Shown: positions 9,169 through 29,401 of the stretch, piece after piece
Numbering within the stretch: position 1 is the first letter of the stretch
Layout of the letters: every line of letters begins with the position of its first letter
Assembly (NCBI RefSeq): GCF_001663815.1
Contig: NZ_CP016027.1
Coordinates: 186,001 to 250,000, forward strand
From: Halothiobacillus diazotrophicus
GTDB lineage: Bacteria; Pseudomonadota; Gammaproteobacteria; Halothiobacillales; Halothiobacillaceae
DNA length: 64,000 nucleotides
Reading direction: 5' to 3'
The notes under the pieces: generated by a model
What the model was told of the DNA's origin: nothing
The model's database searches: none
The model's input: only the letters and a program-made list of their open reading frames with translations
Made by a program: the position numbers and the translations under genes

Positions 9169-9194
9169 GCCGCGGAACGACGAGGTAAACGACC

Positions 9195-9611
9195 ATGGCC
9201 AAGCGATACCACTACCTGGATGCCGAGCGTCCGCGGATCGAGATCATCCCGATGATCGACATCATGATGTTCCTGCTCGTGTTCTTCATCATGGTGACGC
9301 TCAAGATGATTCCCGGCACCGGCGTGCAGCTCAACCTGCCCGGCGCCAGCACCGCAGACAAGCTGCCCACCACCCAGGTCGTCATCGGCGTCGCCGAAGA
9401 CGGTTCCATGCACATCGCCGACCAGACCATGGACAAGGATCAGCTGGCCGCCTACCTGAACAAGATGCACCAGGACAAGACCCAGGAACTCCAGGTCATC
9501 ATCGCCGGAGACAAGCAGGTCTCCCTGCAGAACCTGCTCGCCGTCATGGACGTCGCCCGTGCCCAAGGCATATCCGGCGTCGGCATCGCTACCAGTGAGG
9601 TGAAACAGTGA
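9195..9611 (+). CDS. exbD: ExbD-like protein, copy A
   Basis: Proton-channel partner of ExbB, 138 aa. It has a single N-terminal membrane helix with the conserved acidic residue (IEIIPMIDIMMFLLVFFIM, Asp near residue 22) and a periplasmic domain. It is identical to copy B except for the last residue (Gln here, Lys there). No tonB gene follows. The receptor gene begins 134 bp downstream. Confidence 0.95.
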   Translation: MAKRYHYLDAERPRIEIIPMIDIMMFLLVFFIMVTLKMIPGTGVQLNLPGASTADKLPTTQVVIGVAEDGSMHIADQTMDKDQLAAYLNKMHQDKTQELQVIIAGDKQVSLQNLLAVMDVARAQGISGVGIATSEVKQ

Positions 9612-9625
9612 AACCGAAACATTGA
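9608..9625 (+). pseudogene. Remnant of a tonB start after exbD copy A
   Basis: In copy B the exbD stop overlaps the GTG start of tonB (GTGA). The same GTGA overlap exists here, but the frame reads only five codons (GTG AAA CCG AAA CAT) before TGA. Identity between the copies ends within these bases. The simplest reading is that the duplicated or converted segment stops at the tonB start and that tonB was never copied or was lost here. Confidence 0.5.
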
Positions 9626-9745
9626 ACCCATCGACCGAACCAACGCATGAATCGGCGCATGTCCGGTTCCCGTTTTGACCCTGTTCCTGAACGTCGCGTG
9701 CCTTTCACCACGCACCTGATTAATAGAAAGTACGGAGAGTAGAAA

Positions 9746-12265
9746 ATGATCAAGAAAACGCGTGTCAACCCGTCCGACCGGCAGCGGGGTGAGCTGTTCA
9801 CCCTGACCGTGGGCCGGAAGAAGTGGATTCGTTCCTCCCTGTCGATGATGGTTCTGGCCGGTTCGGTCGCGGTTCCCGGGATTTCCTTCTCGGACGACAT
9901 GGCTGCCAAGCCCGACGACAGCAAGAAGACCCAGAAGCTCGACAAGGTGGTCGTGGAAGGCAAGGTAAAAGATCGCATGGGCATCATGCCGTCCGAACCG
10001 GTGAAGTCCGTATTCGGCTTCGATATGTCGGTCAAGGAAACGCCGCGTTCCGTGACCTCGATCACGAGCGAAATCATGAACGATTTCAACGTGACCGATA
10101 TCAACGACATGGTTGCCCTGAGCCCGGGTGTCTACACCCAGTCGTTCTTCGGCGTGGCCGGCTCCCTGGACGTGCGCGGTACGCCGGGTGAGGTGTATTT
10201 CCGCGGCGTGCGCCGTATCGAAAACCCGGGCAACTACCCGACGCCGATCGGGGCCAGCGACCACATCGACATCGTGCGCGGTCCGGCTTCGCCGATCTAT
10301 GGCCCGTCCCGTATCGGTGGTTACCTGAACTTCGTCCCCAAGTCAGCCCGTTCCGATACCGGTCAGTATATGACCTCGAACAAGGGTCAGATCAGCATGA
10401 CCAAGGGCAGCTACGACGAGAACGTCCTCTCGGCGGAAGTCGGCGGTCCCGGCGAACTGTTCGGCAAGAAGTTCGGTTACTACCTCTATGGACAGAGCGA
10501 GAACAACGGTTCGTACTACCAGAACACCCATACCCGCCAGAACTTGTATCAGGGCTCTGTGAGCATGGATCTGACCCCGAGCTCCCGCGTCGAGTTCGGT
10601 GGCATGTATCAGGATTACAAGGGTAACCAGGTCGCGGGCTGGAACCGCCTGACCCAGGATCTGATCAACAACGGCACCTACATCACCGGTAGCCCGGTCT
10701 CCCTGGATACCAACGGCGATGGTCTGATGTCCGCCGCCGAAATCAAGGCGTACTACAACACGGGCCACACGCTGCAGCCGTTCATCTTCAAGCCGGGCAA
10801 CCTGACTGCTGCCCAGGCCGCGGCGAAGATGGATCCGGCCATGGCACTGCAGAACCCCGGTACCGCCCATCTGGACGGCAGCCAGGTACTGGTTGCGCCG
10901 CCCGACACCCTGCAGGACAAGGTCACCACCCTGTATCTCGATTACATCCACGATCTGGAAGACGGCGGCAGCCTCACCAACAAGATGTACTACGAGAACC
11001 TCGACAACCTGAACGAGAACGCTTACGGCTTCTCCCAGTACGCCAAGACCTGGGCGTTCGAGGATCAGCTGATCTTCGCGAAATCTCTGGATATCACCGA
11101 CAACCTGAAGGGCAGCTACCAGTTCAGCCCGTCCATCCGTTATCAGGACTTCCGTCACGGCGACAACTATGCCTATGAGTTCTTCGATCGTCGGGATCTG
11201 ACCGGCCCGAGCACGCCGATCGATCACCGGACGCTGGCCACAAAGGGACAGGAGCCGTACTCGCATAACACCACCGGTCGATATATCGATTATGGTCTGG
11301 CATTCCTGGCAAACCATACCTTGAACGATTCCCTGCATTTGATGACCGGTCTTCGTTATGACTGGCTGGACGTCAAGTCGACCTGTCTGGCGGGTGGCGT
11401 GAGTTGCGGCAGCATCGCCGGCATCGAGCAGTCCGATACCACCGGGGGTTTCTCCTGGTCTGCGAGTCTGACCTACGACATCCCGCACACCGGTTTGAGC
11501 CCGTATGTGACCGTATCTCGCCAGACGACCCTGATCACGGGGCAGGGTGGGCAGGTGCCGGCGGCCGTCGTGGCCAGTGGCAACAGCATTGCGGGTTCCA
11601 AGTTGAAGGAATTCGGGATCAAGGGTACCTGGTTCGACAACCGCTTGTACGCGGCACTTGATCACTTCGACCAGAGCCGTCTCGACTACAGCGCGCAGGA
11701 TACCGTCACCAACAACACCACCGAGTCCAAGGGCTGGGAGCTGGAGTTGCGCGGCGTTGTCACGAACAACCTGACCGTCACGGGTGCCTGGACCAACCTT
11801 AAGGTGTACAACCTCACGTCGCTGCAGAACGGGACCCAGTTCCAGTTCATCGGTGCGGGTGACATGCCGGCCGGCTTCGATCCGAGCCTGATGTACGGCG
11901 GTGCCGTGCTGGGTATCGTTCCGGCGGGCGACGGCCGCAAGGCGGGTGTGCCGGAGAACATCTACAGCCTGAACTTCCTGTACAACTTCGACAGTGGTCC
12001 GCTGGCCGGTCTGACCAGCAGCCTGAGCCTGATCCGTGTCGACTCGACGTACTCCGGATTCTCGAAGGCCGTCAAGCTGCCGGGCTACACCCTGGTCAAC
12101 CTGGGTGCCGACTACAGCACCAAGAACTGGAAGTTCGGCTTCTACGTCAAGAACGCGACCAACAAGAAGTACTACCGTGCCAACTTCACGGATCTGTTCG
12201 GTTCCAACGTCGTTCTGCCGCAGTTGCCACGTACCTACGAAGCCACCGTTACCTACAAGTTCTGA
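9746..12265 (+). CDS. TonB-dependent outer membrane receptor
   Basis: Outer-membrane active transporter of 839 aa. A long signal peptide (hydrophobic stretch about residues 31-48, cleavage near SFS-DD) is followed by a TonB-box-like DKVVVEGK at about 66-73. A plug domain (SVKETPRSVTSITSEIM to IGGYLNFVPKSARS, about 95-210) leads into a 22-strand type barrel ending in TYEATVTYKF with the C-terminal Phe. A GGAGAG-like ribosome site precedes the ATG. It sits between exbBD and a run of secreted nucleoside-processing enzymes, so a purine nucleoside or related compound is the likely ligand. Sequence alone does not prove the ligand. Confidence 0.92.
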   Translation: MIKKTRVNPSDRQRGELFTLTVGRKKWIRSSLSMMVLAGSVAVPGISFSDDMAAKPDDSKKTQKLDKVVVEGKVKDRMGIMPSEPVKSVFGFDMSVKETPRSVTSITSEIMNDFNVTDINDMVALSPGVYTQSFFGVAGSLDVRGTPGEVYFRGVRRIENPGNYPTPIGASDHIDIVRGPASPIYGPSRIGGYLNFVPKSARSDTGQYMTSNKGQISMTKGSYDENVLSAEVGGPGELFGKKFGYYLYGQSENNGSYYQNTHTRQNLYQGSVSMDLTPSSRVEFGGMYQDYKGNQVAGWNRLTQDLINNGTYITGSPVSLDTNGDGLMSAAEIKAYYNTGHTLQPFIFKPGNLTAAQAAAKMDPAMALQNPGTAHLDGSQVLVAPPDTLQDKVTTLYLDYIHDLEDGGSLTNKMYYENLDNLNENAYGFSQYAKTWAFEDQLIFAKSLDITDNLKGSYQFSPSIRYQDFRHGDNYAYEFFDRRDLTGPSTPIDHRTLATKGQEPYSHNTTGRYIDYGLAFLANHTLNDSLHLMTGLRYDWLDVKSTCLAGGVSCGSIAGIEQSDTTGGFSWSASLTYDIPHTGLSPYVTVSRQTTLITGQGGQVPAAVVASGNSIAGSKLKEFGIKGTWFDNRLYAALDHFDQSRLDYSAQDTVTNNTTESKGWELELRGVVTNNLTVTGAWTNLKVYNLTSLQNGTQFQFIGAGDMPAGFDPSLMYGGAVLGIVPAGDGRKAGVPENIYSLNFLYNFDSGPLAGLTSSLSLIRVDSTYSGFSKAVKLPGYTLVNLGADYSTKNWKFGFYVKNATNKKYYRANFTDLFGSNVVLPQLPRTYEATVTYKF

Positions 12266-12273
12266 TGCGCTTC

Positions 12274-12308
12274 GCCCCGGCCGTCCGTCTGCGACGGCCG
12301 ACCGGGGC
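12274..12308 (+). other. Strong hairpin after the receptor gene
   Basis: GCCCCGG (12274-12280) pairs with CCGGGGC (12302-12308), and inner CCGTC pairs with GACGG. It lies between the receptor stop and the next NUP gene. No T-run follows, so it may act as an mRNA stability or partial attenuation element that keeps receptor expression above that of the enzymes. Confidence 0.4.
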
Positions 12309-12357
12309 CGATGGGTATTCATGACGCAACCTAATGCATTCATCGAGAGTAAAAATC

Positions 12358-13479
12358 ATGTTTCAACGCACCCAAAAATGGCTGCCCGCCCTGCTGCTAA
12401 CGTGGGGGATGGGGGTCATCTGCAGTTCCGTTCAGGCGGAGCCGGCGGAACCGCAGATGGTCAGTGCTGCCGCGCACAAGCCGATCGAGGTCAAGGTCGT
12501 GGTGGTCACGATGTTCGAGATCGGCAAGGACAGCGGCGATCAGGCCGGCGAATTCCAACTCTGGCATGAGCGGCAGCATCTGAACGAGCGGTTCAAGTTC
12601 GCCCATCATCATGACCTCTTCTTCAACCCGAAAACCGGTGTGCTCGGCATGGTTACGGGGATGGGCACCGCCAATTCCGCCAGTGCGGTGATGGAGCTCG
12701 GTATGGATCCGCGCTTTGATCTATCTCACGCCTACTGGCTGGTGGCGGGGATTGCGGGGTTCGACCCGGCCAAAGCTTCCATCGGTTCGGCGGCCTGGGC
12801 CGAGTACCTCGTGGATGGCGACCTGGCCTACGAGATTGATGCCCGGGAAATTCCAAAAGGCTGGTCGACCGGCTATTTCGCCCGCGGGACGAAAAAGCCC
12901 TACGACCCGAATCGTCCCGCGCCAACCGGCGAGATGTTCCAACTGGATCCGAAGCTGACGGATTGGGCCTACGAGCTCACCCGGAACGTGAAGCTGGACG
13001 ACAGTCCCGTGCTGCAGAAGCGCCGCTCGCTCTACACCAATTATCCCAATGCCCGGAAGCCACCCTTCGTGCTGAAGGGCGACAATCTCGCCGCCATGAC
13101 GTTCTGGCACGGCAAGTTGCTCAACGAATGGGCCGAGCGCTGGGTGAAGTACTGGACGAACGGCAAGGGCAATTTCGTCTCCTCGGCCATGGAGGATACC
13201 GGCACCTACCAGTCGCTGAGCTATCTCAGCGAGACCGGCAAGGTCGACAAGAACCGCGTCATGGTGCTGCGGACGGCCAGCAACTACACCATGCCGCCGC
13301 CGGGCGTGACGGCGGTGGACGATCTGCTGCAGGATCACGAGGGCTACGCCGGGCTCGATGCCTCGGTCGAGGCCGCCTACCGGGTGGGTTCGAAGGTGGT
13401 GGATACCCTGGTCGATCATTGGGATATCTACCGGGATCATACACCCGCCCAGATGGCGGGTGCGGACAAGGCGGAGTAG
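12358..13479 (+). CDS. Secreted NUP-family protein 2
   Basis: NUP-family, 373 aa, from the ATG at 12358 (GAGAG upstream) with a signal peptide ending near SVQA-EP. It resembles the nucleoside phosphorylase fold: VKVVVVTMFEIGKDSGD, GMVTGMGTANSAS, WLVAGIAGFDP and AAMTFWHG. The putative ribose-binding Met-Glu-Asp is M278-E279-D280 and the putative base-contact Asn is N309 in RTASNY. It is 7 bp upstream of the next paralogue and clearly co-transcribed with it. A periplasmic phosphorolysis or hydrolysis of purine nucleosides is the best guess; family members are little characterised in bacteria. Confidence 0.82.
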   Translation: MFQRTQKWLPALLLTWGMGVICSSVQAEPAEPQMVSAAAHKPIEVKVVVVTMFEIGKDSGDQAGEFQLWHERQHLNERFKFAHHHDLFFNPKTGVLGMVTGMGTANSASAVMELGMDPRFDLSHAYWLVAGIAGFDPAKASIGSAAWAEYLVDGDLAYEIDAREIPKGWSTGYFARGTKKPYDPNRPAPTGEMFQLDPKLTDWAYELTRNVKLDDSPVLQKRRSLYTNYPNARKPPFVLKGDNLAAMTFWHGKLLNEWAERWVKYWTNGKGNFVSSAMEDTGTYQSLSYLSETGKVDKNRVMVLRTASNYTMPPPGVTAVDDLLQDHEGYAGLDASVEAAYRVGSKVVDTLVDHWDIYRDHTPAQMAGADKAE

Positions 13480-13486
13480 GGCGATC

Positions 13487-14587
13487 ATGCGCATGCCCCG
13501 ATCTCGATGGACACAACGCCTGGTGACATGGCTTCTGGTCGCTGGTGCGGCCTGCGGAGTGACCAGTGGCGCCAGTCATTCCGCCTGGGCCGGCAACCCC
13601 ATCGTCAACCGGCCGACTCCGGTCAAGGTGGTCGTGGTCAGCATGTTCGAGATCGGCAAGCCGACCGGCGATGCGCCCGGGGAATACCAGTTCTGGGTGG
13701 AACGGCAGAAGCTCGATCGGGTGTATCCGTTTCCCCTGGGCGAATACGATCTGCGCATGAACGACCAGGGCCTGCTCGGCATCTGCACGGGCGGCGGCAT
13801 CACCAATGCCACGGCGTCGATCATGGCCCTGGGCATGGATCCCCGGTTCGATCTCTCCAAGGCCTACTGGGTGATCGCGGGCATCGCCGGCGGGGATCCC
13901 GAGGACGTTTCCCTCGGCACCGCGGCCTGGGCGCGCCATGTGGTGGACGGCGATCTGCTCTACGAGATCGATGCACGCGAGATTCCCAAATCCTGGCCCT
14001 ACGGATTGCTGCCGCTGGGTGCGAAAGCCCCCAACGACAAGGCCACCGGCTGGACCGTCGACACCATTCATTTCCCGCTCAATGCCAAGCTGGCCGAATG
14101 GGCCTACGACCAAACCAAGGATCATCCCGTGGCGGACAGCCCAGGCATCGCCGATTTCCGCAAGCTGTACGTCGGTTATCCGAACGCGCAGCGACCACCC
14201 TTCGTCACGATGGGGGACGATCTGTCCGCCAGTACCTACTGGCACGGGGAAAAGCTGAATCAGTGGGCCAACGACTGGATGCATCTGCAGGCCGGGAAGG
14301 ACAGCAATTTCATGATGGCCGACATGGAGGACAGCGGTACGTTGACGGCGCTGCGGCGCTTGGCGCGTACCCATCGGGTCGACCTCAATCGGGTGATGGT
14401 GCTGCGTACCGCGAGCAACTACAGCATGCCGCCCAAAGGCAAACCCGCCGCCTGGAGTACGACGGCACCGTATCCCGAGCAGGGCCGTCCCGCGCTGGAA
14501 GCCGCCTATCAGGTAGGCAACCGGGTCGTGCAGAAACTCATCGCCGGCTGGTCCGTGTATCGCGACCGTCTGCCGAGCCAACCGTAA
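13487..14587 (+). CDS. Secreted NUP-family protein 3
   Basis: 366 aa with signal peptide (cleavage near SAWA-GN). It is the closest relative of NUP 2 in this window: VKVVVVSMFEIGKPTGDAPGE, TGGGITNAT, WVIAGIAGGDP and STYWHG. The ribose motif is M280-E281-D282 and the base-contact Asn is N311 (RTASNYSMP). The gene starts 7 bp after NUP 2 with AGGGCG as ribosome site, and the next paralogue follows 13 bp after its stop. The tandem order suggests local duplication and divergence. Confidence 0.82.
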   Translation: MRMPRSRWTQRLVTWLLVAGAACGVTSGASHSAWAGNPIVNRPTPVKVVVVSMFEIGKPTGDAPGEYQFWVERQKLDRVYPFPLGEYDLRMNDQGLLGICTGGGITNATASIMALGMDPRFDLSKAYWVIAGIAGGDPEDVSLGTAAWARHVVDGDLLYEIDAREIPKSWPYGLLPLGAKAPNDKATGWTVDTIHFPLNAKLAEWAYDQTKDHPVADSPGIADFRKLYVGYPNAQRPPFVTMGDDLSASTYWHGEKLNQWANDWMHLQAGKDSNFMMADMEDSGTLTALRRLARTHRVDLNRVMVLRTASNYSMPPKGKPAAWSTTAPYPEQGRPALEAAYQVGNRVVQKLIAGWSVYRDRLPSQP

Positions 14588-14600
14588 TCGGAGAACGTCC

Positions 14601-15686
14601 ATGCGCCAAGCGCTCGTCGTGTTGATGACCGTTCTTCTCGGGGCATCGCCAGTCTATGCCGAAGACAAGATCGCGCCGAAGGTCATCGTGCTGGCCGGTT
14701 TCGAGGTCGGCGACGATACCGGCGATGCGCCCGGTGAGTTCCAGTACTGGGCCGAACGCGAAAAACTCACCGGGACATTGGTGGTACCGGGAGCGCCGCA
14801 TCCGCTTCGATTCAACGCGGATGGGCTCTACGGCAGCGTGGCCGGCAATACGCGGGACAAGTTTCTGTCCACGGTGCCCGCCAGCGAATTGATCATGGCG
14901 CTGTGTCTGGATCCCTGTCTGGATTTGCGCAAAACGTACTGGATTATCACCGGTATCGCCGGGATCGATCCCAAGGCGGGTTCTATCGGTAGCGCCGTCT
15001 GGGCGAAGAACGTCGTGGATGCCGATGCGATGCGGGAGATCGGCGGGGCGGATATTCCCAAGGGCTGGCCCTACGGTCTGTTCGCGATCGGTACGATGGG
15101 GCCGAACCAGTTGCCCAAGACCCATGCGGATGCCGGCGGTTGGGGCGGCGCCACGCTCAGCTATTCGATGAATTATCCCCTGAATGCGGGGCTGGCCGAC
15201 TGGGCCTACGACTATTCGAAGTCGCGAGTGACGCTCAAGGATGCGGCGGATCTGAAAGCCTGGCGGGACAAGTACAGCGGCTATACCCAGGCGCAGAAAC
15301 CGCCGGAAATCCTGATGGGCGCCACCCTGGCCACGGCCCGCTACTGGCATGGGCCGGAACGGACGCAATGGGCACGCGATTGGGTCAAGCTCTGGACCGA
15401 CGGCAAGGATCATTTCGCCACCACCGCCATGGAGCAGGCCGCCTATGTCGGCACCCTGCAACGTATGGCGAAGCAGGGCTATGTGGATTTCAGCCGGGTC
15501 ATGATGTTGCGGGGCGCCAGCAACTACTGCATGCCGCCGCCGGGTCAGAGCGTGCTGACCACGATCGGTGACGAGTCTCTGGGCACGAAGCCAGCCTTCG
15601 AGGCGGAATACCGCGCGGGTTCGGTGGTGGCGCATGAACTCATCGCGCATTGGGATCGCTACAAGACAACGCCGCCGGGTCGCTAG
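14601..15686 (+). CDS. Secreted NUP-family protein 4 (divergent)
   Basis: 361 aa with a clear signal peptide (LVVLMTVLLGASPVYA-ED). It shares the NUP framework (PKVIVLAGFEVGDDTGDAPGE, WIITGIAGIDP, TARYWHG, RGASNY with N308). It departs from it in the stretch normally giving TGMGxxN (here VAGNTRDKF) and in the ribose motif, which is M277-E278-Q279. It also carries extra cysteines (LCLDPCLDL). Altered substrate preference is likely. Whether it is still catalytic cannot be told from sequence alone. Confidence 0.78.
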   Translation: MRQALVVLMTVLLGASPVYAEDKIAPKVIVLAGFEVGDDTGDAPGEFQYWAEREKLTGTLVVPGAPHPLRFNADGLYGSVAGNTRDKFLSTVPASELIMALCLDPCLDLRKTYWIITGIAGIDPKAGSIGSAVWAKNVVDADAMREIGGADIPKGWPYGLFAIGTMGPNQLPKTHADAGGWGGATLSYSMNYPLNAGLADWAYDYSKSRVTLKDAADLKAWRDKYSGYTQAQKPPEILMGATLATARYWHGPERTQWARDWVKLWTDGKDHFATTAMEQAAYVGTLQRMAKQGYVDFSRVMMLRGASNYCMPPPGQSVLTTIGDESLGTKPAFEAEYRAGSVVAHELIAHWDRYKTTPPGR

Positions 15687-15769
15687 AGGGCGCATCCCGT
15701 CGCGCCGAAGCCTGGCTGCAAGCCAGTGGGCCCGAAAGGTCGTTATGAAGTATTTGAGGAGTGCCTGTC

Positions 15770-16612
15770 ATGAAACTTGGTCGTCTGTTGCTGGTTCTTG
15801 CCTTGCTGTGCTATCGCAGCGTGTTCGCGGCGGAAGGCGTGGACCATCCCACCTACTACACACCGACGGACACGATCCTGATCCTCGGTGCCGTGCCGCA
15901 GGAAATCCCACCCTTCGTCGCGGCCATGACCGATCGTGAGAAGAAGTCCCTCTGGGGTATTCCGTATTGGCAGGGAAAGATTGACGGCAAGCCGGTGGTC
16001 GTGGCGATTACCGGGATCGGCAAGGTGTTCACCGGCATGACCAGCACCTTGTTCATCACCCAGTTCAAGCCGCGGCTGGTGCTGATGAGTGGCACGGGTG
16101 CCCGGATCAACAAGAAGCTGCGTACGGGGGACGTGATCGTCGCCAATGTCGTGTATGAGCACGATTACGGCAGCCTCACCCGCAAGGGGATGGTCTATCG
16201 GCCGATGAACGGGCCGGATGATGGGAATGAGGTGCAGAACGCGTTCTCACCGCCTGATGCTTTGCTGAAATTGGCTGACAAGGCCATCGCCACCTACCAG
16301 GCACCGAAAGTGACTGCCAACGGGTCCACCTATACCGTGAAGGTGCGCCGTGGTGTGGTGGCCTCGTCGGATCTGTTCGGTGTGACCGAGCGGCGCATCC
16401 GGCTGCTGCGCACGCGCTTTCACGACGACATCATGGAAATGGAATCCGGCCCGTTGGGGCATGTGTGCCAGACACTCGGCGTGCCGTATCTCGTCGTGCG
16501 CGCGGGCAGCAATGTCGCCCAGGAAGCGCCGAACAACGATTACCTGCGTTTGGGCCCCATTGCGGCGCGCTCGGCAGCCGAGTTTTCGTTGCATTTGCTG
16601 ACGTATTTGTAA
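15770..16612 (+). CDS. Secreted PNP/MTAN-fold nucleosidase-like protein
   Basis: 280 aa of the PNP_UDP superfamily, related to 5'-methylthioadenosine/S-adenosylhomocysteine nucleosidase. It has a signal peptide (MKLGRLLLVLALLCYRSVFA-AE), unlike the usual cytoplasmic enzyme. The ATG at 15770 is chosen because GAGGAG lies 8 bases upstream; a GTG at 15761 overlaps that site. The signature glycines are in ITGIGKVFTGM and LMSGTGARI. Ribose-binding M224-E225 is present (IMEMESG). The catalytic Asp of MTAN (R-x-x-S-D) is replaced by N248 (RAGSN), as in PNPs that prefer 6-oxopurines. Confidence 0.78.
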   Translation: MKLGRLLLVLALLCYRSVFAAEGVDHPTYYTPTDTILILGAVPQEIPPFVAAMTDREKKSLWGIPYWQGKIDGKPVVVAITGIGKVFTGMTSTLFITQFKPRLVLMSGTGARINKKLRTGDVIVANVVYEHDYGSLTRKGMVYRPMNGPDDGNEVQNAFSPPDALLKLADKAIATYQAPKVTANGSTYTVKVRRGVVASSDLFGVTERRIRLLRTRFHDDIMEMESGPLGHVCQTLGVPYLVVRAGSNVAQEAPNNDYLRLGPIAARSAAEFSLHLLTYL

Positions 16613-16667
16613 TTCGTGACGAATCCTGCCGAAGCCAAGATTCAGTCGTTATTTGAGGAGTTTTCCG

Positions 16668-18188
16668 GTGTTTAAGCGTCAATCATGGATTGTGGTGTTT
16701 GTCCTTTGCCTCCAATGGGTCGTCGGGCCAGCCGCCTGGGCGGTCGGGGACGAGGCCTGGTTTGATGCCGTGAAGCAGAAGGCGACACCGGCCCAGCTGT
16801 ATACCTTTCTGTACGCCATGCCGAAGGGCGGTGACCTGCATGATCACCTGACCGGCGCCGGCCGTTCGGAATGGTGGTGGGCGGCGGCGCTGGCCCAGGA
16901 GACCCATGGTTACACCTATTACACCAAGGTTCGGATCAACAACTGTGCCCCCTTCGATGTGAACGAGTATGGTCGCGCACCGTATCTCCTGCTGTTCCGC
17001 AATCTTCAGGAATCCCATTACAAGCAACTCAGTGCCTGCGAACAGGGCGAATTCAAGCGTCTGCAGGATCTGACTCCGGCCGAGAAGACGGGCTGGCTGA
17101 ACAGCATTCGCCTGAACAAACCCTATGAGGGTCGCGACGAATTCTTCGGCGCACACTGGCAGCGGCTGAACGACATCACCCGCAACCCGTACATCATCAG
17201 CGACATCCTGCTGGACAACATGCGGGCCTTCGGCCGGGAAGGGCTGATCTATCTCGAGATGATGAACGGGTCGATGGGGTTCCTGAAACCCGATGGCAGT
17301 CCCATCCCGCCGGACGACGTCGTGGCCCTGTACCGCAAGATCCTGGCTTCGCCCGAGGCGAAGGCGACGGGCGTGACCGTTCGGTTCCAGACCTCCGTGC
17401 TGCGGTTTGCGCCCACGGCAGAACAACAGCTACGGGCCGAATATGCCTTTGTCGACAAGCATCGCGACCTGTACGTCGGCATCAATTTCGTCGGGCGCGA
17501 GGATAACGGCAAGGGCTATCCGCTGCGCTTCCTGTCCACTTTGCGCGATCTGCGCCGGCAGTATCCCGCGATCAATCTGGCGATCCACGCCGGGGAAGAG
17601 GATCAGCCCGACCATCATGTGCGCGATTCCCTGTTGTTGGGCGCGAAGCGGATCGGTCATGGCGTGAACCTCATCGAGGATCCGCAGACCATGCTGCTGA
17701 TGCGCGACAACCACTTCATGGTCGAGATCAACCTGATCAGCAACCTGCTGCTCGAATACGTGCCCGACTTCGCGCATCACCCGTTCCCCGAGTATCTGCG
17801 CATCGGCATTCCGGTGGCGCTCTCCACGGACGACCGGGGCATGTGGGATTCGAACCTGACGGACGAGTTCTACGTGGCCGTGACCAACTTCAACCTGTCC
17901 TGGCACGAGATCGTGACGCTGGGGCGCAATTCGATCCAGTACGCCTTCGTGGATGCGGCGACCAAGCAGAAACTCCTGAAGGAATACGACCAGCGCATCG
18001 CCCGATTCGAGTCCGAGTTCAAGCGCAAGGGCTGGGCGGCCTTCAAGGACGTGCATCCGGTGAACTATTCCTTTGCCTGCAAGCACTTCAAGCTGTGTTT
18101 CCCACCCAAGGATCCGGCGGCGCCGACCGACTCGCCTCAGACCAATCTGCCCGCCGCCTTGCCGCATGATTTTGCGGTGACGAATTAG
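16668..18188 (+). CDS. Secreted adenosine deaminase-like protein
   Basis: 506 aa, start GTG at 16668 with GAGGAG seven bases upstream. The signal peptide covers about residues 1-25. Metal and catalytic residues are all visible: H58 and H60 (DLHDHLTG), H307 and E310 (HAGEE), H331 (RIGHG) and D388-D389 (STDD). The spacings H307-E310, H307-H331 and H307-D388 equal those in mouse/human ADA (214, 217, 238, 295). The long N-terminal part and export recall secreted ADGF/CECR1-type deaminases. It would turn adenosine into inosine in the periplasm, feeding the neighbouring phosphorylase-like proteins. Confidence 0.85.
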   Translation: MFKRQSWIVVFVLCLQWVVGPAAWAVGDEAWFDAVKQKATPAQLYTFLYAMPKGGDLHDHLTGAGRSEWWWAAALAQETHGYTYYTKVRINNCAPFDVNEYGRAPYLLLFRNLQESHYKQLSACEQGEFKRLQDLTPAEKTGWLNSIRLNKPYEGRDEFFGAHWQRLNDITRNPYIISDILLDNMRAFGREGLIYLEMMNGSMGFLKPDGSPIPPDDVVALYRKILASPEAKATGVTVRFQTSVLRFAPTAEQQLRAEYAFVDKHRDLYVGINFVGREDNGKGYPLRFLSTLRDLRRQYPAINLAIHAGEEDQPDHHVRDSLLLGAKRIGHGVNLIEDPQTMLLMRDNHFMVEINLISNLLLEYVPDFAHHPFPEYLRIGIPVALSTDDRGMWDSNLTDEFYVAVTNFNLSWHEIVTLGRNSIQYAFVDAATKQKLLKEYDQRIARFESEFKRKGWAAFKDVHPVNYSFACKHFKLCFPPKDPAAPTDSPQTNLPAALPHDFAVTN

Positions 18189-18204
18189 GGTTGAGGCGCG
18201 GCGA

Positions 18205-19101
18205 ATGAACGATCAAGGTCAACAAAATCAGGGATATGGCATTCGGTCCAGGGGGCTGGTCGGGCTGATGCTGGCCATGGTGTCGGTGTTTTCGCCGCCA
18301 CTGCTTGCCGCTCCGACCCAGTCCTCGACGGCGGAGGACCGTGTCCAGACGCTGATCGATTCGCTGGGATTGCAACACCTGAATGCGGAGTCGGGCATGT
18401 ATTCGGTCGCGCGCGTCTCGGATCTCCAGGTCACCGCATCGGATGGCCAATCGCCAGCCAGCAATGCGATCTATTTCATGCTGACGCCCAAATATCGCGT
18501 CAATTACCTGCATTGGCTGTATTCCGACGACTACCAGACCCTGATCGAGGGAGGACCGGCCGATTACTACCTGTTCTATGCCGATGGTCACGTCGCCAAG
18601 TACACCATGGGACGCGATCTGGCGAAGGGACAGGTGCTCATGGTCCCCTGTCCGGCGGGTACCGCCAAGGCCATCGTGCTGCACAAGGAGGCGAAGTACC
18701 TGCTGGTCAGTTCCGTGCTGTCGCCGGCCTGGAGTCCACAGCGCGCACGCATCGGAGCCGACTACGCCTTCCTCAAGAAGTATGGGAGCAAGGCCGACTG
18801 GGCGACACCGGGGTTTCTGACGTTCCTGATCGGACCGAATTTCGCCCATACGATCGGTGCGGACAACAAGGGGTTTTCGCTGGACGTTGACGGCAACGAG
18901 CAACTGCTCTGGAAAGGCATGCAGCTCTCGGAGAAGCAGGTGCGCGTGGAACTGAAGAAGATGGCGGCTGCCGATCCGAATCGCGTCCTGACGATTACGT
19001 TTCTGGGCGAGGCTGCCCGCGCCGTGGCGATGAAGATGCAACGGATAGCGCATGAAATCGGGGTTCGTCAGGTGAAGATCCTGCCGGCCCACGATCATTG
19101 A
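18205..19101 (+). CDS. Secreted cupin_5 (DUF985-like) protein with ExbD-like C-terminal domain
   Basis: 298 aa with a signal peptide or N-terminal anchor (hydrophobic residues about 18-36). Residues about 45-190 follow the DUF985/cupin_5 pattern: a helix LIDSLGLQ, then SNAIYFMLTP, the HW-SDD block, YYLFYADG, and LLVSSVLSPAW. Residues about 222-295 (LDVDGNEQLL, KQVRVELKKM, AVAMKMQRIAHEIGV) align well by eye with the periplasmic domain of the ExbD encoded here. Function is unknown. It may touch the TonB machinery or be a small-molecule binding protein. It starts 17 bp after the deaminase stop in the same operon. Confidence 0.6.
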   Translation: MNDQGQQNQGYGIRSRGLVGLMLAMVSVFSPPLLAAPTQSSTAEDRVQTLIDSLGLQHLNAESGMYSVARVSDLQVTASDGQSPASNAIYFMLTPKYRVNYLHWLYSDDYQTLIEGGPADYYLFYADGHVAKYTMGRDLAKGQVLMVPCPAGTAKAIVLHKEAKYLLVSSVLSPAWSPQRARIGADYAFLKKYGSKADWATPGFLTFLIGPNFAHTIGADNKGFSLDVDGNEQLLWKGMQLSEKQVRVELKKMAAADPNRVLTITFLGEAARAVAMKMQRIAHEIGVRQVKILPAHDH

Positions 19102-19175
19102 GCGGCATTGACCATCAGGCGTGCATACCAAATGAATTCGTGCACTGGGGCGCTGATTGTGGAGTGTGATGAGTG

Positions 19176-20327
19176 ATGAATAGGCGAGTCTTGTTGCGTG
19201 GATTGATCCTGGTGGTCAGTGTCTGGCTGGCAACGGCCCAGGCTGAGGGGCTGGCTTCGGATCAGAAATCCGATTCGGCCATGGATCCGACCTTAAATCC
19301 GACCAAGGTCCCGCTGCGACCCAAGCTGGTCGTGGTGACCTATTTCGAGATCGGCAAGGATACGGGCGACAAGCCCGGCGAACTGCAGCACTGGGTGACG
19401 CGGGATCACCTCGATCGGGTGATTCCGGTGCCCGGCATGACGCATCCCGTGCGCGCCAATGCCGACGGCAGCGAGATCGCCGTGGTCGTCGGGCCCGGCC
19501 AGATCCGACCGGCAGTCAATCTCATGGCGTTGGGCCATGATGCCCGGTTCGATCTGCGCCAGAGCTACTGGCTGATCAACGGTATCGCCGGCGTGTCGCC
19601 GAACGATGGCACGATGGGCGCGGCCTTCTGGACGGATTACGTGGTGAACGGCGATCTGCTGCATCTGATCGATCCCCGGGAAATGCCCAAGGATTGGCCG
19701 GATGGCTATTACGCCATCGACAAGACCCGACCGGGGGAGGAACCGCGCGTGCCGGCCGGTTCTCCCGAAGACGTACGTACCTGGCCCAAGGACCAGGCGC
19801 ACCTCAACAGCCGGGGCACCGTTATCCAGCTCAATCCGAAATTGTTGCACTGGGCCTACGGGCTGACCAAGGGAATTTCCCTGCCACAGGATGCGGCGAT
19901 GAAGGCGGTGGATGCGGAATACACCGGTTTTCCGCTGGCGCAGCAGACGCCGAAAGTGGCCATCGGCGCCAATATCGCTTCGGAAACCTTCTGGCACGGT
20001 CGACTGATGGATGAATGGGCGCATCGCTGGGTGGCCTATGAAACCGATGGCAAGGCCCGACTGGGCACCACGGCCATGAACGATTCCGGTGCGCTGCTGG
20101 CCCTGTATTCCCTGACCCAGTCCGGCCTGGCCGACTGGAATCGGGCACTCCTGCTGCGGACGGCCAGCAATTTTGACGCGCAACCCCCGGGCATGACGGC
20201 GGAACAGAGCGCCAACGGCGAGCAGCACGGCGCGTACACCGGGTATGACGCCTCCCTGGAGTCGGCCTATCTCGTCGGCAGTCGGGTCGGCAAGGCGATC
20301 CTGGCCGGCAAGGCGCCGACGCCATGA
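19176..20327 (+). CDS. Secreted NUP-family protein 5 (altered active-site motif)
   Basis: 383 aa with signal peptide (VSVWLATAQA-EG). The NUP framework is kept (PKLVVVTYFEIGKDTGDKPGE, WLINGIAGVSP, SETFWHG, RTASNF with N332). The putative ribose motif is M301-N302-D303, so the Glu thought to hold the ribose hydroxyls is lost. The glycine-rich stretch is VVVGPGQIRPA instead of TGMG. It also has an insertion of about 25 residues around GEEPRVPAGSPEDV. It may bind rather than cleave its ligand, or act on a different sugar. It is the last NUP gene of the operon. Confidence 0.78.
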   Translation: MNRRVLLRGLILVVSVWLATAQAEGLASDQKSDSAMDPTLNPTKVPLRPKLVVVTYFEIGKDTGDKPGELQHWVTRDHLDRVIPVPGMTHPVRANADGSEIAVVVGPGQIRPAVNLMALGHDARFDLRQSYWLINGIAGVSPNDGTMGAAFWTDYVVNGDLLHLIDPREMPKDWPDGYYAIDKTRPGEEPRVPAGSPEDVRTWPKDQAHLNSRGTVIQLNPKLLHWAYGLTKGISLPQDAAMKAVDAEYTGFPLAQQTPKVAIGANIASETFWHGRLMDEWAHRWVAYETDGKARLGTTAMNDSGALLALYSLTQSGLADWNRALLLRTASNFDAQPPGMTAEQSANGEQHGAYTGYDASLESAYLVGSRVGKAILAGKAPTP

Positions 20328-20450: not shown

Positions 20451-21554
20451 ATGTCATTGATCAGGAATCCAGTATTGCGTATGCCCAACCCGTCCGGACG
20501 GCTCCGGTCGGCCCCGCGCCGTGTGATGACCTCCGTTGCAATGATGGCGCTGGTCGCGGCAGGGTGGCTGGGGGTGCCGCAGATCGCAGCGGCAGCGCCC
20601 GACATGACCTACCATCCACAGCCCCGTCTGGGCATTCTGGTCCCCATCGGTCCGCCGGACTACAGCGTGCTGATGTCGCAGTTCGTGAAGGAAAAGACGC
20701 TCAAATACGGACCGTTCACGTACTTCGTGGGCACCCTCAAGCAGGTGCCGACCGTCATCTGCATCCAGCCCTTCGGCGGGCCGGTCACCCGCGCGATGTC
20801 GGCCCAGGCGATGCTCACGCATTTCAATATCAAGGCCCTGATCTATCCGGGTACCTCGGGTGCGCATCTCGAGGCGGATCAGATGGTGATTGGCGATGTG
20901 GTGCTGGGTGCCAAGCACGTGAATTTCGCCAACTTCTTCATGACGAAAGCGGGCGATCTGATTCCCGACGAGTTCACTGCCGAGAGTGCGATGGGGCGCT
21001 TCAACATGCTGTATGCCAACCCGACCCTGCTGCACTATCTGGCCTGCTCGGCGACGGAGGTCGCCGCCAAGGCGAAAATGCCGGACTGGGTGAATCCCGG
21101 CGTGACGCAAGCGCATCCCAAGATCTTCTATTACGGGATTCAGGGTACTTCGACCATGTGGCTGGCGAACAAGGCGTTCATCCACAAGACCCATCAGGTC
21201 TTCCACGAGCTGGACGAGGATGGCGACTGGTTCTCCGCGGTCGTGGCGGCCATGTACGACGTGCCCTTCATCGAGGTCAGCACGATATCGGACAGCATTT
21301 TCGAATTTCCCGATACCGAGCGGGGCATTCCGGTGCCGCCCAAGTCGACCGACCCGGGGGTTCATGTGAAGAACGCCTCCGTACTGGCCCAGGACATGAG
21401 TAATCGGATTGCCGTGGCCCTGATCGGGCGCTATGGCGAAAAGATCCTCAAGGGGCATTACCCGACACCGGAAACCTCGCCGGTTCCCGATGCCTGGTAT
21501 GCCGACGCGGCCAATCCGCGAGACCTGCTCAAAGGCAAGGATTGCCTGCCCTGA
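20451..21554 (+). CDS. Secreted purine nucleoside phosphorylase-like protein
   Basis: 367 aa of the PNP_UDP superfamily but not of the NUP family. A long n-region and hydrophobic stretch (about residues 26-48) form a signal peptide ending near AAA-APD. PRLGILVPIGPPDYSVLM and LIYPGTSGAHLEADQMVIGDVV carry the fold, and D281 in STISDS matches the catalytic Asp of hexameric PNP and MTAN. The usual Met-Glu pair is replaced by ELDEDGDW. It is the last gene before a terminator. The Asp suggests it can act on 6-aminopurine nucleosides, unlike the Asn-bearing relatives. Confidence 0.75.
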   Translation: MSLIRNPVLRMPNPSGRLRSAPRRVMTSVAMMALVAAGWLGVPQIAAAAPDMTYHPQPRLGILVPIGPPDYSVLMSQFVKEKTLKYGPFTYFVGTLKQVPTVICIQPFGGPVTRAMSAQAMLTHFNIKALIYPGTSGAHLEADQMVIGDVVLGAKHVNFANFFMTKAGDLIPDEFTAESAMGRFNMLYANPTLLHYLACSATEVAAKAKMPDWVNPGVTQAHPKIFYYGIQGTSTMWLANKAFIHKTHQVFHELDEDGDWFSAVVAAMYDVPFIEVSTISDSIFEFPDTERGIPVPPKSTDPGVHVKNASVLAQDMSNRIAVALIGRYGEKILKGHYPTPETSPVPDAWYADAANPRDLLKGKDCLP

Positions 21555-21714: not shown

Positions 21715-21742
21715 GCCGGGGTCAAAGTACCCCGGCTTTTTT
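21715..21742 (+). terminator. Rho-independent terminator of the + strand operon
   Basis: GCCGGGG (21715-21721) and CCCCGGC (21730-21736) form a perfect 7-bp GC stem with an 8-base loop followed by TTTTTT. It closes the long + strand operon. The stop codon of the convergent deaminase lies in the loop. Confidence 0.88.
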
Positions 21743-23131
21743 CAGCATGGTTCTGCTGGACCGGTTATGACGCTTGACCAGCATGTCAACGTCGAGCCCA
21801 ACGACCTGATGATCCTCGACCACGATCCGTCCGTTGATCAGTGAAAACCAGGCGCGCGCCGGTGCACAGGTGACGAGGGCGGCAACCGGATCCCCCAGGG
21901 CACCGGCATGGCCCAGATCGTCGATGCGGAAGGCGACAATATCCGCAGCCTTGCCGACTTCCAGACTGCCGATGTCGTCGCGCTGCAGCACCCGTGCGCC
22001 ACCGAGCGTAGCCAGTTCCAGCGCTTCCCGGGCGGAAAATCGGTCGGCGCGGGATTCGAAGCCGGGCCAGCCGACGCGCTGCAGCAGCATCGCCTGTCGC
22101 GCTTCGCCCAGCATGTGGTTGCCGTCGTTGCTGGCCGAGCCGTCCACGCCCAGGCCGACCCGCACCCCCAGATCCACCATCCGACGCACCGGCGCGATGC
22201 CGGAAGCGAGAATCATGTTGCTGCTCGGGCAATGACAGACCCCGGAGCAATGATGGGCCATTCGCTGAATTTCCGGTTCCGTCGGGTGCACCATGTGCGC
22301 GAACCAGACGTCCGCGCCCATCCACTCCACCGACTCGGCGTATTCCAGCGGACGCATGCCGAATTGTTCGAGGCAGAAACGATCCTCATCCAGGGTTTCG
22401 GCCAGATGGGTGTGCAGCCCGACGCGGCGGTAGCTTCGGGCTAGCCGCGCGCTTTCGCGCATGAGGTCGCCGGTGACGCTGAACGGGGAGCAGGGGGCGA
22501 GACCGATCCGAACCATGGCGAGCGGTTCCGGGTCGTGAAAGGTTTCGATGACCCGCTGGCTGTCCTCGAGAATGGCCGCTTCGGATTCGACCACGCGATC
22601 CGGGGGAAGGCCGCCCTGGCTTTCGCCGAGGCTCATGCTGCCGCGGGTCGGATGAAAACGCACCCCCAGTTCCTGCGCGGCAGCAATCTCGTCATCGAGT
22701 CGAATGCCGTTGGGAAAGAGATAAAGATGATCGGCGACGGTGGTGGCGCCGGACAGCAGCAATTCGGCGAGGCCAACCTGTGTGCTGGTATAGATGGCCT
22801 CGGGATCCATTTCTGCCCATATGGGGTAGAGCATCTTCAGCCAATCGAAGAGTACCTTGCCTTCCCCGGTGCCGATGGTGCGGGTCAGGGTCTGGTAGAG
22901 ATGATGATGGCAATTGACGAGGCCCGGCGTGACGACACAGCCCTGAGCATCGAGGATTCGGTCCGGTTGGCGGTTGCCGGGATCCTGCTGGATCCAGAGC
23001 AGCATTCGGGCGGCGGAATCGATGTGGACGATCCGTGAATCGACGACGAGGAGGCTGGCATGGGGCAACTCCTCGCGGTCGGCATTCATGGTGACCAGAA
23101 CGTCGGCATTATGGATGAGGATTCGATTCAT
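21722..23131 (-). CDS. 8-oxoguanine deaminase / guanine deaminase-type amidohydrolase
   Basis: Cytoplasmic amidohydrolase of 469 aa. Metal ligands are in NCHHHLYQTLTR (H75, H77), THLAET, and GLGVDGSASND. The block TRGSMSLGESQGGLPPD is characteristic of 8-oxoguanine deaminases (8-oxoguanine to urate), which also act on related purines. The start at 23131 is the first Met giving the usual family opening. It is the last gene of the exbB-exbD-tonB operon on this strand. 8-oxoguanine deamination yields urate directly, so it feeds the allantoin branch without xanthine dehydrogenase. Confidence 0.85.
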   Translation of the reverse strand: MNRILIHNADVLVTMNADREELPHASLLVVDSRIVHIDSAARMLLWIQQDPGNRQPDRILDAQGCVVTPGLVNCHHHLYQTLTRTIGTGEGKVLFDWLKMLYPIWAEMDPEAIYTSTQVGLAELLLSGATTVADHLYLFPNGIRLDDEIAAAQELGVRFHPTRGSMSLGESQGGLPPDRVVESEAAILEDSQRVIETFHDPEPLAMVRIGLAPCSPFSVTGDLMRESARLARSYRRVGLHTHLAETLDEDRFCLEQFGMRPLEYAESVEWMGADVWFAHMVHPTEPEIQRMAHHCSGVCHCPSSNMILASGIAPVRRMVDLGVRVGLGVDGSASNDGNHMLGEARQAMLLQRVGWPGFESRADRFSAREALELATLGGARVLQRDDIGSLEVGKAADIVAFRIDDLGHAGALGDPVAALVTCAPARAWFSLINGRIVVEDHQVVGLDVDMLVKRHNRSSRTMLKKAGVL

Positions 23132-23180
23132 GCGGGCTTCTTGGGTTGAGGCGGTTATCTGCTGTGGTGCCGCCCCGCGC

Positions 23181-23197
23181 GGGAGCCTGTGGCTCCC
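23181..23197 (-). other. Hairpin between tonB and the deaminase gene
   Basis: GGGAGCC-TGT-GGCTCCC forms a perfect 7-bp stem with a 3-base loop in the 99-bp spacer. No T-run follows on the minus strand, so read-through into the deaminase is likely. It may set the ratio of tonB to deaminase mRNA. Confidence 0.4.
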
Positions 23198-23230
23198 CGG
23201 CTTACGAACACGCACCTTGGGCCGGTTCCG

Positions 23231-24079
23231 TTACTGATCGCTCAGCTTGAACTGGATCACCTGTTCCACCTGACCATCAACCGCCTTGCCGTCTACCATC
23301 TTGGGCTTGAACTCCCAGTGCTTGACCGCATCCACGGCAGCGCGATCGAACAGGCGTGGCGGGTTCGATTCGATGACGGTCACGTGGTCGACATGTCCGT
23401 CGGCCGTGACGGTGAACCGGAGCTTGACCCAGCCTTCGATACCGGCGTTCAAGGCACGTCGCGGATAGTCCGGCTTCACGCGGCTGACGCTTTTCGCTTC
23501 GCTGCTCGCACCGGCTTGCGCGGGTTTGGGTGGTGCCGGTTCGGCGGGCTTGGGCGGTGCCGGTGGCGCCTTCTCGGCCACGGGTTTCGGGGGTGGCGTC
23601 GGTTTTGGCGGTTCCTTGGGCGGCTCTACCTTTTTCGGCTTGGGCTTATGCGGCTTCGGCTTCTCGTGATGAACCGGCTTTGGCTTGGGCGGCTCCTGAA
23701 TCGGCGATTTCGGTAGCGGCTTGGGCGGCTCGGTCTTGATCGGATCCGGCTTTGGCGGTGGCGTCGGCTCAGGCGGCGGTGGCGGCGGTGGCGGCACCGG
23801 CTCCGGTGGTGGCGGGGGTTCCGGGGGCGGGGGCTCCACGGGCTTGGGCGGCGTGGGTGCCGGCATGGACATGGGGATGAATTCGGTGACCTGGGTGATT
23901 TTCTCCGGTGCTTTCTTGTGTTGGGTCGACACATAGGCGATGCCGGCGATCAGCGCTGCTTCGATCACCAAGGCCACCATGATCGCCTTGGGCAAGGAGA
24001 GGCGCCGTTCCTTGGGAATGCTGAAATCCAGCGCGATGGGCGAGGAAACGGTTTCCGCCCGACTCATCGTGGGTTTCAC
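23231..24079 (-). CDS. tonB: TonB protein with long proline-rich spacer
   Basis: Links inner-membrane energy to outer-membrane receptors. 282 aa, GTG start at 24079 overlapping the exbD stop and preceded by GAGGTG; an ATG at 24067 has no ribosome site. One membrane helix lies at about residues 33-50. A spacer of about 120 residues, mainly Pro, Lys and Glu, spans the periplasm. The C-terminal domain (VKPDYPRRALNAGIEGWVKLRFTV, VIESNPPRLFDRAAVDAVKHWEF) is a standard TonB C-terminus. It is the only tonB in the window and presumably serves both receptors. Confidence 0.95.
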   Translation of the reverse strand: MKPTMSRAETVSSPIALDFSIPKERRLSLPKAIMVALVIEAALIAGIAYVSTQHKKAPEKITQVTEFIPMSMPAPTPPKPVEPPPPEPPPPPEPVPPPPPPPPEPTPPPKPDPIKTEPPKPLPKSPIQEPPKPKPVHHEKPKPHKPKPKKVEPPKEPPKPTPPPKPVAEKAPPAPPKPAEPAPPKPAQAGASSEAKSVSRVKPDYPRRALNAGIEGWVKLRFTVTADGHVDHVTVIESNPPRLFDRAAVDAVKHWEFKPKMVDGKAVDGQVEQVIQFKLSDQ

Positions 24080-24492
24080 TTTTTCACCTCACTGGTAGCG
24101 ATGCCGACGCCGGAGATGCCCTGAGCGCGGGCGACGTCCATGACGGCGAGCAGGTTCTGCAGGGAGACCTGCTTGTCGCCGGCGATGATGACCTGGAGTT
24201 CCTGGGTCTTGTCCTGGTGCATCTTGTTCAGGTAGGCGGCCAGCTGATCCTTGTCCATGGTCTGGTCGGCGATGTGCATGGAACCGTCTTCGGCGACGCC
24301 GATGACGACCTGGGTGGTGGGCAGCTTGTCTGCGGTGCTGGCGCCGGGGAGGTTGAGCTGCACGCCGGTGCCGGGAATCATCTTGAGCGTCACCATGATG
24401 AAGAACACGAGCAGGAACATCATGATGTCGATCATCGGGATGATCTCGATCCGCGGACGCTCGGCATCCAGGTAGTGATATCGCTTGGCCAT
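24076..24492 (-). CDS. exbD: ExbD-like protein, copy B
   Basis: 138 aa, identical to copy A except for the C-terminal Lys. It has a single membrane helix with the conserved Asp and a periplasmic domain. Its stop overlaps the GTG of tonB, giving a coupled exbB-exbD-tonB operon. The third-position differences from copy A cluster in the last 60 bases and the first codons of the gene. Confidence 0.95.
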   Translation of the reverse strand: MAKRYHYLDAERPRIEIIPMIDIMMFLLVFFIMVTLKMIPGTGVQLNLPGASTADKLPTTQVVIGVAEDGSMHIADQTMDKDQLAAYLNKMHQDKTQELQVIIAGDKQVSLQNLLAVMDVARAQGISGVGIATSEVKK

Positions 24493-24518
24493 GGTGGGTT
24501 ACCTCGTCGTTCCGCGGC

Positions 24519-25214
24519 TCAGGACAGGGTGGCCTGGGGCTGGCTGCCGATGGGCGGGTTCTCGGGCGTGGCCGCCTGCGCGCCGTAGGCCTCGCTCGGG
24601 GTGACGCCGCCGCCATGGATGCGGTTGATGACCATGGTCTTGAGCAGCTCCATCTGATGCATGGTCAGGCGGACGCGCTTGCTGAAGTAGTTGAGGAACA
24701 CCACGGTGATGATGGCGATGAGCAGACCGCCGCCGGTGGCGATGAGGGCATGGCCGATCCCGCCCGTGACGGCGTTGGGATCCTTGGAATCACCCAGCAC
24801 GTCGAAGGTCTCGATCATGCCGATGATGGTGCCGAACAGGCCCAGCAGCGGGGCTAAGGTCACGGTGGTGTCGAGGATCCACAGCATGCGGTCGAGCTTG
24901 GGCAGCTGCCACAGCATGGACTCCTCGATATGCCGGTCCATCACCTCGGCCGTCTCGCCGCGGGAGTTGAGCGCGACGGAGAGCACCACGGCCTGCGGCG
25001 CACCGGCATAGTGGTCGGCCACCTGCTGCAGGCTCTTGCGATCGCCGTAGCGCACCTTCTGCACGGCGTACTCCATGGCCAGGCCAGCCCGGATCACCCA
25101 GTTGAAGAAATAGAGGCGTTCGATGATGACCGCCAGGGCAATCAGGAGCAGCAGGGCCATCAGCGGCAGCAGACCGCCGGACATGACACTCAACTTAATC
25201 AAATAATCCAACAT
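24519..25214 (-). CDS. exbB: ExbB-like proton channel protein, copy B
   Basis: 231 aa, identical in sequence to copy A. It is the first gene of the operon exbB-exbD-tonB-8-oxoguanine deaminase. Its 220-bp leader is also shared with copy A, so both operons probably respond to the same signals. Confidence 0.95.
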   Translation of the reverse strand: MLDYLIKLSVMSGGLLPLMALLLLIALAVIIERLYFFNWVIRAGLAMEYAVQKVRYGDRKSLQQVADHYAGAPQAVVLSVALNSRGETAEVMDRHIEESMLWQLPKLDRMLWILDTTVTLAPLLGLFGTIIGMIETFDVLGDSKDPNAVTGGIGHALIATGGGLLIAIITVVFLNYFSKRVRLTMHQMELLKTMVINRIHGGGVTPSEAYGAQAATPENPPIGSQPQATLS

Positions 25215-25355
25215 GGCGAAGCCTCACGAATCGAGAAAAAAGGTCCGGTTGATCGGGTTCAAACTGGCTTGAAGCGCCCGGAATTGACCGGTGCGCGAAG
25301 TCGTATCTAGCAATGCAAAAAACTGGCCAATTGTTCAAGAAATTCGCAAGCCACT

Positions 25356-25372
25356 GTTAACATTGGGTTAAC
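25356..25372 (-). promoter_or_regulatory. Twin GTTAAC palindromes upstream of exbB copy B
   Basis: Same site as at 8315-8331: two GTTAAC palindromes 11 bp apart centre to centre. Its presence in both exbB leaders follows from the repeat, so this is not independent support for function. Confidence 0.35.
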
Positions 25373-25434
25373 GGCGCGTGAAATGGAAAGTTCGGCAAAA
25401 TCAGCCCGGCAAATTCGGCACCGAGGTTGAGCAC

Positions 25435-26145: not shown

Positions 26146-26174
26146 TTGACATAAATACGGGCGCTGTCAGAATG
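26146..26174 (+). promoter_or_regulatory. Possible promoter of the WYL regulator
   Basis: Perfect -35 TTGACA at 26146-26151, then 17 bases and AGAATG at 26169-26174, a poor -10. The strong -35 with a weak -10 would fit an activator-dependent or autoregulated promoter. Confidence 0.35.
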
Positions 26175-26203
26175 TGCCTGGAAATACTGCGTGGGAGAGA
26201 CGC

Positions 26204-27925: not shown

Positions 27926-27993
27926 CACGGGCTCCTTGGATAATCAGGATCCCGGGCGATCGTTGCCCGGGCAATATGTCGGTTCGTCGGCGA

Positions 27994-29400: not shown

Positions 29401-29401
29401 G

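Follow-up and report, generated by a model that had tools for sequence, protein, structure and literature searches.

Genes at the locus

The window, i.e., the whole analysed stretch of 64,000 nucleotides from Halothiobacillus diazotrophicus (contig NZ_CP016027.1), harbours at 18205–19101 a gene whose product combines a Cupin_5 jelly roll with a soluble domain of the ExbD/TolR periplasmic type (termed tail in the following). The gene is located in an island of purine- and RNA-related genes with the following members:

9746–12265, + strand: TonB-dependent receptor of the island (Pfam plug and barrel)
12334–13479, + strand: NUP-family protein, probably exported (sequence comparison with the Solimonas loci)
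13358–14587, + strand: NUP (PF06516; Pfam)
14601–15686, + strand: NUP (PF06516; Pfam)
15761–16612, + strand: PNP_UDP_1 protein, nucleoside phosphorylase/nucleosidase-like, probably exported (Pfam)
16653–18188, + strand: adenosine-deaminase-like protein, probably exported, directly upstream of the cupin gene (Pfam/NCBIfam)
18205–19101, + strand: Cupin_5 with C-terminal ExbD/TolR-like domain, probably exported (298 amino acids, ATG start)
19173–20327, + strand: NUP (PF06516; Pfam), directly downstream of the cupin gene
20451–21554, + strand: PNP_UDP_1 protein (Pfam)
21722–23215, − strand: amidohydrolase, probably aminopurine deaminase (Pfam; 70% identical to a gene of the S. flava locus)
23231–24079, − strand: TonB (TonB_C, E 1.2e-22)
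24076–25214, − strand: exbD (24076–24492) and exbB (24519–25214), with a near-identical copy at 8473–9611
27107–29400, − strand: RNase T2 (27107–27928) and PhoD-like phosphatase (27994–29400), both with signal-like N-termini

Genes for allantoinase PuuE, allantoicase, ureidoglycolate lyase and a Bmp-type binding protein were also identified in the window. With RNase T2, phosphatase, nucleosidase-like proteins, deaminases, receptors and allantoin breakdown joined in one place, the island represents a candidate route for periplasmic scavenging of RNA and purines, and the signal-like N-termini suggest that its enzymes act together in the periplasm. RNase T2, the PhoD-like phosphatase and a second TonB-dependent receptor are grouped at 27107–31672, which suggests extracellular RNA as a possible food source.

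Five NUP (PF06516) paralogues are located within 6918–20327; the searchable literature says little about what NUP proteins do biochemically in bacteria. A WYL-domain protein, possibly a regulator, is encoded at 26174–27061, flanked by the exbB copy and the RNase T2 gene. The purine genes are flanked by an inverted duplication of 1363 bases (8253–9615 and 24072–25434, 99% identical) carrying exbB and exbD, and only the right-hand copy has tonB beside it. The tonB-exbD-exbB genes lie about 4–6 kb from the cupin gene, on the opposite strand, with exbB at a distance of 5–6 kb.

Domain structure of the protein

The following features were assigned to the 18205–19101 protein (all + strand):

18205–18312: signal-peptide-like N-terminus, residues 1–36 (by eye; signal-like stretch about 17–36, hydrophobic core about 18–29, cleavage near A35/A36)
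18346–18741: Cupin_5/DUF985 jelly roll, residues 48–179 (Pfam E 3.4e-19; Foldseek)
18388–18390: E62, family-conserved Glu (profile alignment to 1xe7 residue 44)
18799–18843: conserved helical segment 'WATPxFLxxLIGPNF', residues 199–213 (alignment; also kept in the tail-less L039)
18868–19086: ExbD/TolR periplasmic-type domain, residues 222–294, b-b-b-a-b-a-b (profiles and models)

The assignment of the N-terminal part to DUF985/cupin_5, already proposed in a preliminary description of this DNA, is borne out by Pfam (Cupin_5, PF06172, residues 48–179; score 69.7 bits, cut-off 25, E 3.4e-19); NCBIfam yielded no match for the protein. The whole-protein AlphaFold2 model reached a mean pLDDT of 87.7 and a pTM of 0.70, the latter meaning that the placement of cupin and tail relative to each other is uncertain. 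The same description regarded the protein as secreted: a signal-like N-terminus is indeed visible by eye, and export to the periplasm is, judged from this sequence feature, probable. Signal-like N-termini were likewise seen by eye in three relatives (L004, L005, L039), but not in L003, which is probably cytoplasmic because only about 15 residues precede its cupin, leaving no room for a signal peptide.

Relationship of the tail to ExbD and TolR

Pfam ExbD (PF02472) aligns with residues 214–292 through its periplasmic part (profile positions 44–123), with E 0.21 when the entire protein is searched and E 0.033 when only the tail is. The tails of the window protein and its three full-length relatives (L003, L004, L005) score 13.3–16.7 bits, all under the cut-off of 25.4, and ExbD is the sole Pfam match for each of the four (E 0.008–0.09). 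In the reverse direction, a six-frame search of 398 genomes with a profile of the four tails retrieved 10 non-self matches, seven of which are ExbD proteins hit in the periplasmic domain and in correct register. The other three (L049–L051) are Ffh, one gene in three genomes of one genus with E about 2e-4, and were rejected as chance matches. Within the Solimonas family, the best tail match outside the own gene is an ExbD in each of G433, S. flava and S. variicoloris.

Comparison of the tails with the ExbDs picked by the tail profile using hhalign gave a probability of 97.4% and E 1.2e-11 over 71 columns, the tail being gap-free. Since the tail profile itself had picked this ExbD set, hhalign was repeated with four unselected ExbDs of the window's genome (probability 87.6%, E 3.5e-6). 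A profile built from four ExbDs of this genome, weak on account of its small number of sequences, scores the window tail above 2,500 shuffles, and its scores for the relatives' tails were equalled by 18–35 of 2,500 shuffles.

In line with a check suggested by the preliminary description, a tail-only AlphaFold2 model was computed from the four tails with no ExbD sequences as input; its confidence (mean pLDDT 68) is lower than that of the whole-protein model. The top seven rows of a Foldseek search against 350,542 PDB chains are all TolR or ExbD, including TolR 5by4 and ExbD 8vgc, 8pek, 8p9r, 8vgd and 2pfu. VIA-align superimposed the model on TolR 5by4 over 76 residues at 2.9 A with a Z of 7.6, a value below 8 that is by itself no proof of kinship and is consistent alongside the sequence evidence. 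Judged from profiles and predicted fold together, the tail is homologous to the periplasmic domain of ExbD/TolR, sharing its order of strands and helices, as the preliminary description had supposed.

The proposed alignment of residues 222–295 with the neighbouring ExbD is not borne out by direct BLASTP, which returned E 7, no measurable similarity. This ExbD is not the closest to the tail, which resembles another ExbD class with the pattern 'GxLxWNG...PELHLRAD' or, more narrowly, 'GxLFWNG...PELHLRAD', to which the reverse matches also belong. Derivation of the tail from the neighbouring ExbD is hence unsupported. Of the element order described earlier, the 'DG' lies one residue off in the profile alignments. 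In contrast to ExbD and TolR, the tail is soluble and attached to a cupin; the ExbD profile is matched only from position 44–47 onward, and the transmembrane helix with the conserved, proton-path Asp is replaced by the signal-like peptide and the cupin.

Distribution and evolution of the tailed protein

The search in other genomes suggested by the preliminary description recovered the domain pair three times. Across 84,980 species genomes, full-length relatives were detected only in an uncultured gammaproteobacterium (MAG, L003), Solimonas flava (L004) and S. variicoloris (L005), with 55–61% identity to the window protein, tail included. The tailed protein thus occurs in three independent lineages, and the pairing of cupin and ExbD-type tail is real and conserved in these unrelated lineages. 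Two members of the same cupin subgroup lack the tail, namely those of G433 (L039) and G499 (L040, with its N-terminus cut by the contig end). Nine genomes from the same genus as the window, like the class, order and family samples, yielded no further tailed copies; in the Solimonas family, S. flava and S. variicoloris alone carry a tailed orthologue. Plasmids contained only two distant cupins, and phages and viral contigs no relative. Among the genomes searched the tailed protein is rare, the spread given here being a lower bound as the searches sampled species. No description of a Cupin_5 and ExbD-type domain pair was found in the searchable literature, and the architecture is a new combination of known parts.

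Cupin and tail evolve at different rates. Identity among the relatives is 68–74% for the cupin versus 32–38% for the tail, and dN/dS in the Solimonas pair (S. flava/S. variicoloris) amounts to 0.12 and 0.26, respectively. These sequence comparisons indicate that the tail evolves faster than the cupin and is nonetheless under purifying selection in the Solimonas pair. Four residues of the b2-b3 hairpin and helix 1 (Q233, Q240, Q245 and E249) are invariant among the tails and not general in ExbD. In 80% of bootstrap trees, a single branch separates the tailed cupins from the rest; the tail-less G433 protein may represent either a loss or the more ancient form.

The purine locus of Solimonas

For many of the island genes, the S. 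flava locus contains a relative, with identities of up to 78%. The receptor (9746–12265) is 58–59% identical to the receptors upstream of the cupin gene in S. flava and G433, and the NUP-family protein (12334–13479) is 75–78% identical to the product of the cupin-adjacent gene in S. flava, S. variicoloris and G433. The order receptor-NUP-cupin, followed by a permease, is shared by S. flava and G433; in the latter, the permease gene starts about 40 bases past the cupin stop. The S. flava gene following the cupin (L004 8781–10682) codes for a fusion of a xanthine/uracil-type permease with an OHCU decarboxylase domain, and similar ORFs are present in L005 and L039.

An outer-membrane receptor, nucleoside-cleaving enzymes and deaminases are common to the island and the Solimonas loci. 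Motif scans detected no exbB, exbD or tonB near the relatives (40 kb in S. flava, 34 kb in G433, 13.5 kb in S. variicoloris and 16.7 kb in the MAG). The shared genes and gene order, together with this absence of ton genes, indicate that it is the purine island and not the TonB motor that travels with the cupin. The Cff1-type cupin appears as a consistent member of the purine locus in Solimonas. Compared with this purine/nucleoside locus (NUP, PNP, ADA, permease, receptor), the receptor, NUP and cupin of which are 58–78% identical to those of the window, the window has additional genes close by (two exbBD copies, tonB, RNase T2 and PhoD), and other genes separate its cupin from the receptor. 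Outside Solimonas, the tailed relative of the MAG (L003 7992–8771) is located between aldolase-like and alpha/beta-hydrolase-like genes, outside any recognised purine genes.

The cupin domain

Foldseek assigned the cupin to the YML079w-type jelly-roll fold (1xe8, E 4e-15; 3loi, E 5.5e-15). Its nearest structures are yeast Cff1p/YML079w (1xe8), BbDUF985 (3loi, an entry for which apo and GDP-bound forms were solved), 3m3i and SO0799 (1yud), a Leishmania protein being among them. Jelly roll, profile match and a conserved Glu are shared with Cupin_5/DUF985 proteins such as Cff1p, SO0799 and BbDUF985: E62, invariant in 12 of 12 aligned sequences, aligns with E44 of Cff1p (1xe7 residue 44). In Cff1p, the exchange E44A abolishes formation of 4-hydroxy-5-methylfuran-3(2H)-one (MHF), homologues from many organisms complement, and a nucleotide was co-crystallised (PMC8092285). 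The signal-like N-terminus has a counterpart in SsYCP1 of Sclerotinia (PMC8704077).

The window protein differs from these Cupin_5/DUF985 proteins in its purine-island setting and in its pocket motifs. The typical 'HPEGG' is changed to 'NAESG', and the bacterial stretch 'HR..SDE.WHF' to 'HW..SDDYQTL' ('HW..SDDYQ(T/S)L' in the tailed relatives). The latter stretch is typical rather than universal; because BbDUF985 and Cff1p vary there too, the window protein stays in Cupin_5. The GDP-bound BbDUF985 lacks the conserved Glu at the E62 position in the profile alignment. Given the altered pocket stretches and the missing Glu of BbDUF985, the Cff1p reaction cannot be assumed for the window cupin, and its reaction may differ from that of typical Cupin_5 members or be lost. 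The generic bacterial Cupin_5 members aligned here have no C-terminal domain, unlike the window protein.

Possible function of the tailed cupin

The reading we tentatively favour, without considering it probable as a whole, is that a Cff1-like cupin takes part in the periplasmic catabolism of RNA and purines by acting on a nucleotide or a sugar derived from nucleosides, and that the ExbD-type tail serves as a module for self-association or scaffolding. RNase T2, PhoD, NUP and PNP proteins and deaminases would release nucleotides, nucleosides, bases and ribose in the periplasm, and the exported cupin would bind or convert one of these products via E62, as in yeast Cff1p, the ribose moiety or a nucleotide sugar being the likeliest target. 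The tail would descend from an ordinary ExbD that lost its membrane helix, and would now be a passive module for self-association or positioning of the cupin. Counting against this proposal, the pocket motifs of the cupin are altered, the tail has lost the loop of the ExbD dimer contact, the MAG copy has no surrounding purine genes and the tail occurs in just three independent lineages.

A direct connection to the Ton machinery, suggested in the preliminary description as docking on TonB/ExbB or competition with ExbD, appears unlikely. Here, the tail would dock the cupin on the machine by capture of the TonB D-box, by pairing with ExbD or via peptidoglycan, either under a nucleoside receptor or in competition with ExbD. 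The ExbD fold of the tail and the TonB-dependent receptors linked to the cupin gene in the window, S. flava and G433 are in line with such docking. The isolated periplasmic domain of ExbD dimerises (PMC10907165; also title of 8pek), the D-K loop between central strand and helix 2 forms the contact between the protomers and thereby the D-box groove, and L132 is needed to bind the TonB D-box, for which E. coli ExbD 59–141 has a Kd of about 19 uM (PMC10907165). Of these D-box-related features, the tails keep only a hydrophobic residue at the L132 position (I292 in the window protein, L in the relatives; alignment only). The D-K loop is missing from all tails in the alignment, and as this dimer-contact loop is not kept, ExbD-style dimerisation of the tail is not supported. 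Unlike ExbD, moreover, the tail has no exbB partner gene near the relatives. Its faster evolution compared with the cupin, its absence from the G433 orthologue, which stands beside the same receptor, and its presence on the signal-less MAG protein indicate that the tail is probably no indispensable connection to the Ton motor. Still less likely is a specific adaptor role, in which an exported purine-handling enzyme binds the TonB D-box or the Ton complex via a captured ExbD domain; if true, processing would be placed at, or timed with, the TonB-dependent import of nucleosides or RNA fragments.

Alternatively, a single gene fusion could have brought in the tail, which would now be a nearly neutral passenger on its way to being lost. 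Its absence from the G433 and G499 relatives and its low identity next to that of the cupin would fit, but with dN/dS well below 1 in the Solimonas pair and an ExbD-type pattern intact across three lineages this view is improbable. A role as a binding module for a small molecule or substrate, regulating or completing the active site of the cupin, could account for the invariant, tail-specific Q233, Q240, Q245 and E249. However, among three independent lineages at about 35% identity such invariance can be due to chance, the G433 orthologue manages without the tail, and the domain placement is uncertain in the model (pTM 0.70), making this role improbable. The single-sequence Pfam scores under cut-off, the insignificant BLASTP result and the failure of the relatives' tails to outscore the best 1% of shuffles might point to chance similarity to ExbD, or to a widespread small a/b fold reached by convergence. 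In view of the reciprocal in-register profile matches, the gap-free hhalign alignment and the tail-only fold search with its seven TolR/ExbD matches, chance similarity was rejected, and this reading as a whole is highly improbable.

The periplasmic domains of ExbD and TolR are the working ends of membrane motors; their occurrence as the soluble tail of an enzyme-like cupin, on L003 apparently even in the cytoplasm, marks the fold as detachable and reusable. The tail thereby offers a natural soluble version for asking what an ExbD-type domain binds alone. The cupin orthologue of G433 (L039 2159–2821), found in the same gene order without the tail, provides a natural tail-less comparison.
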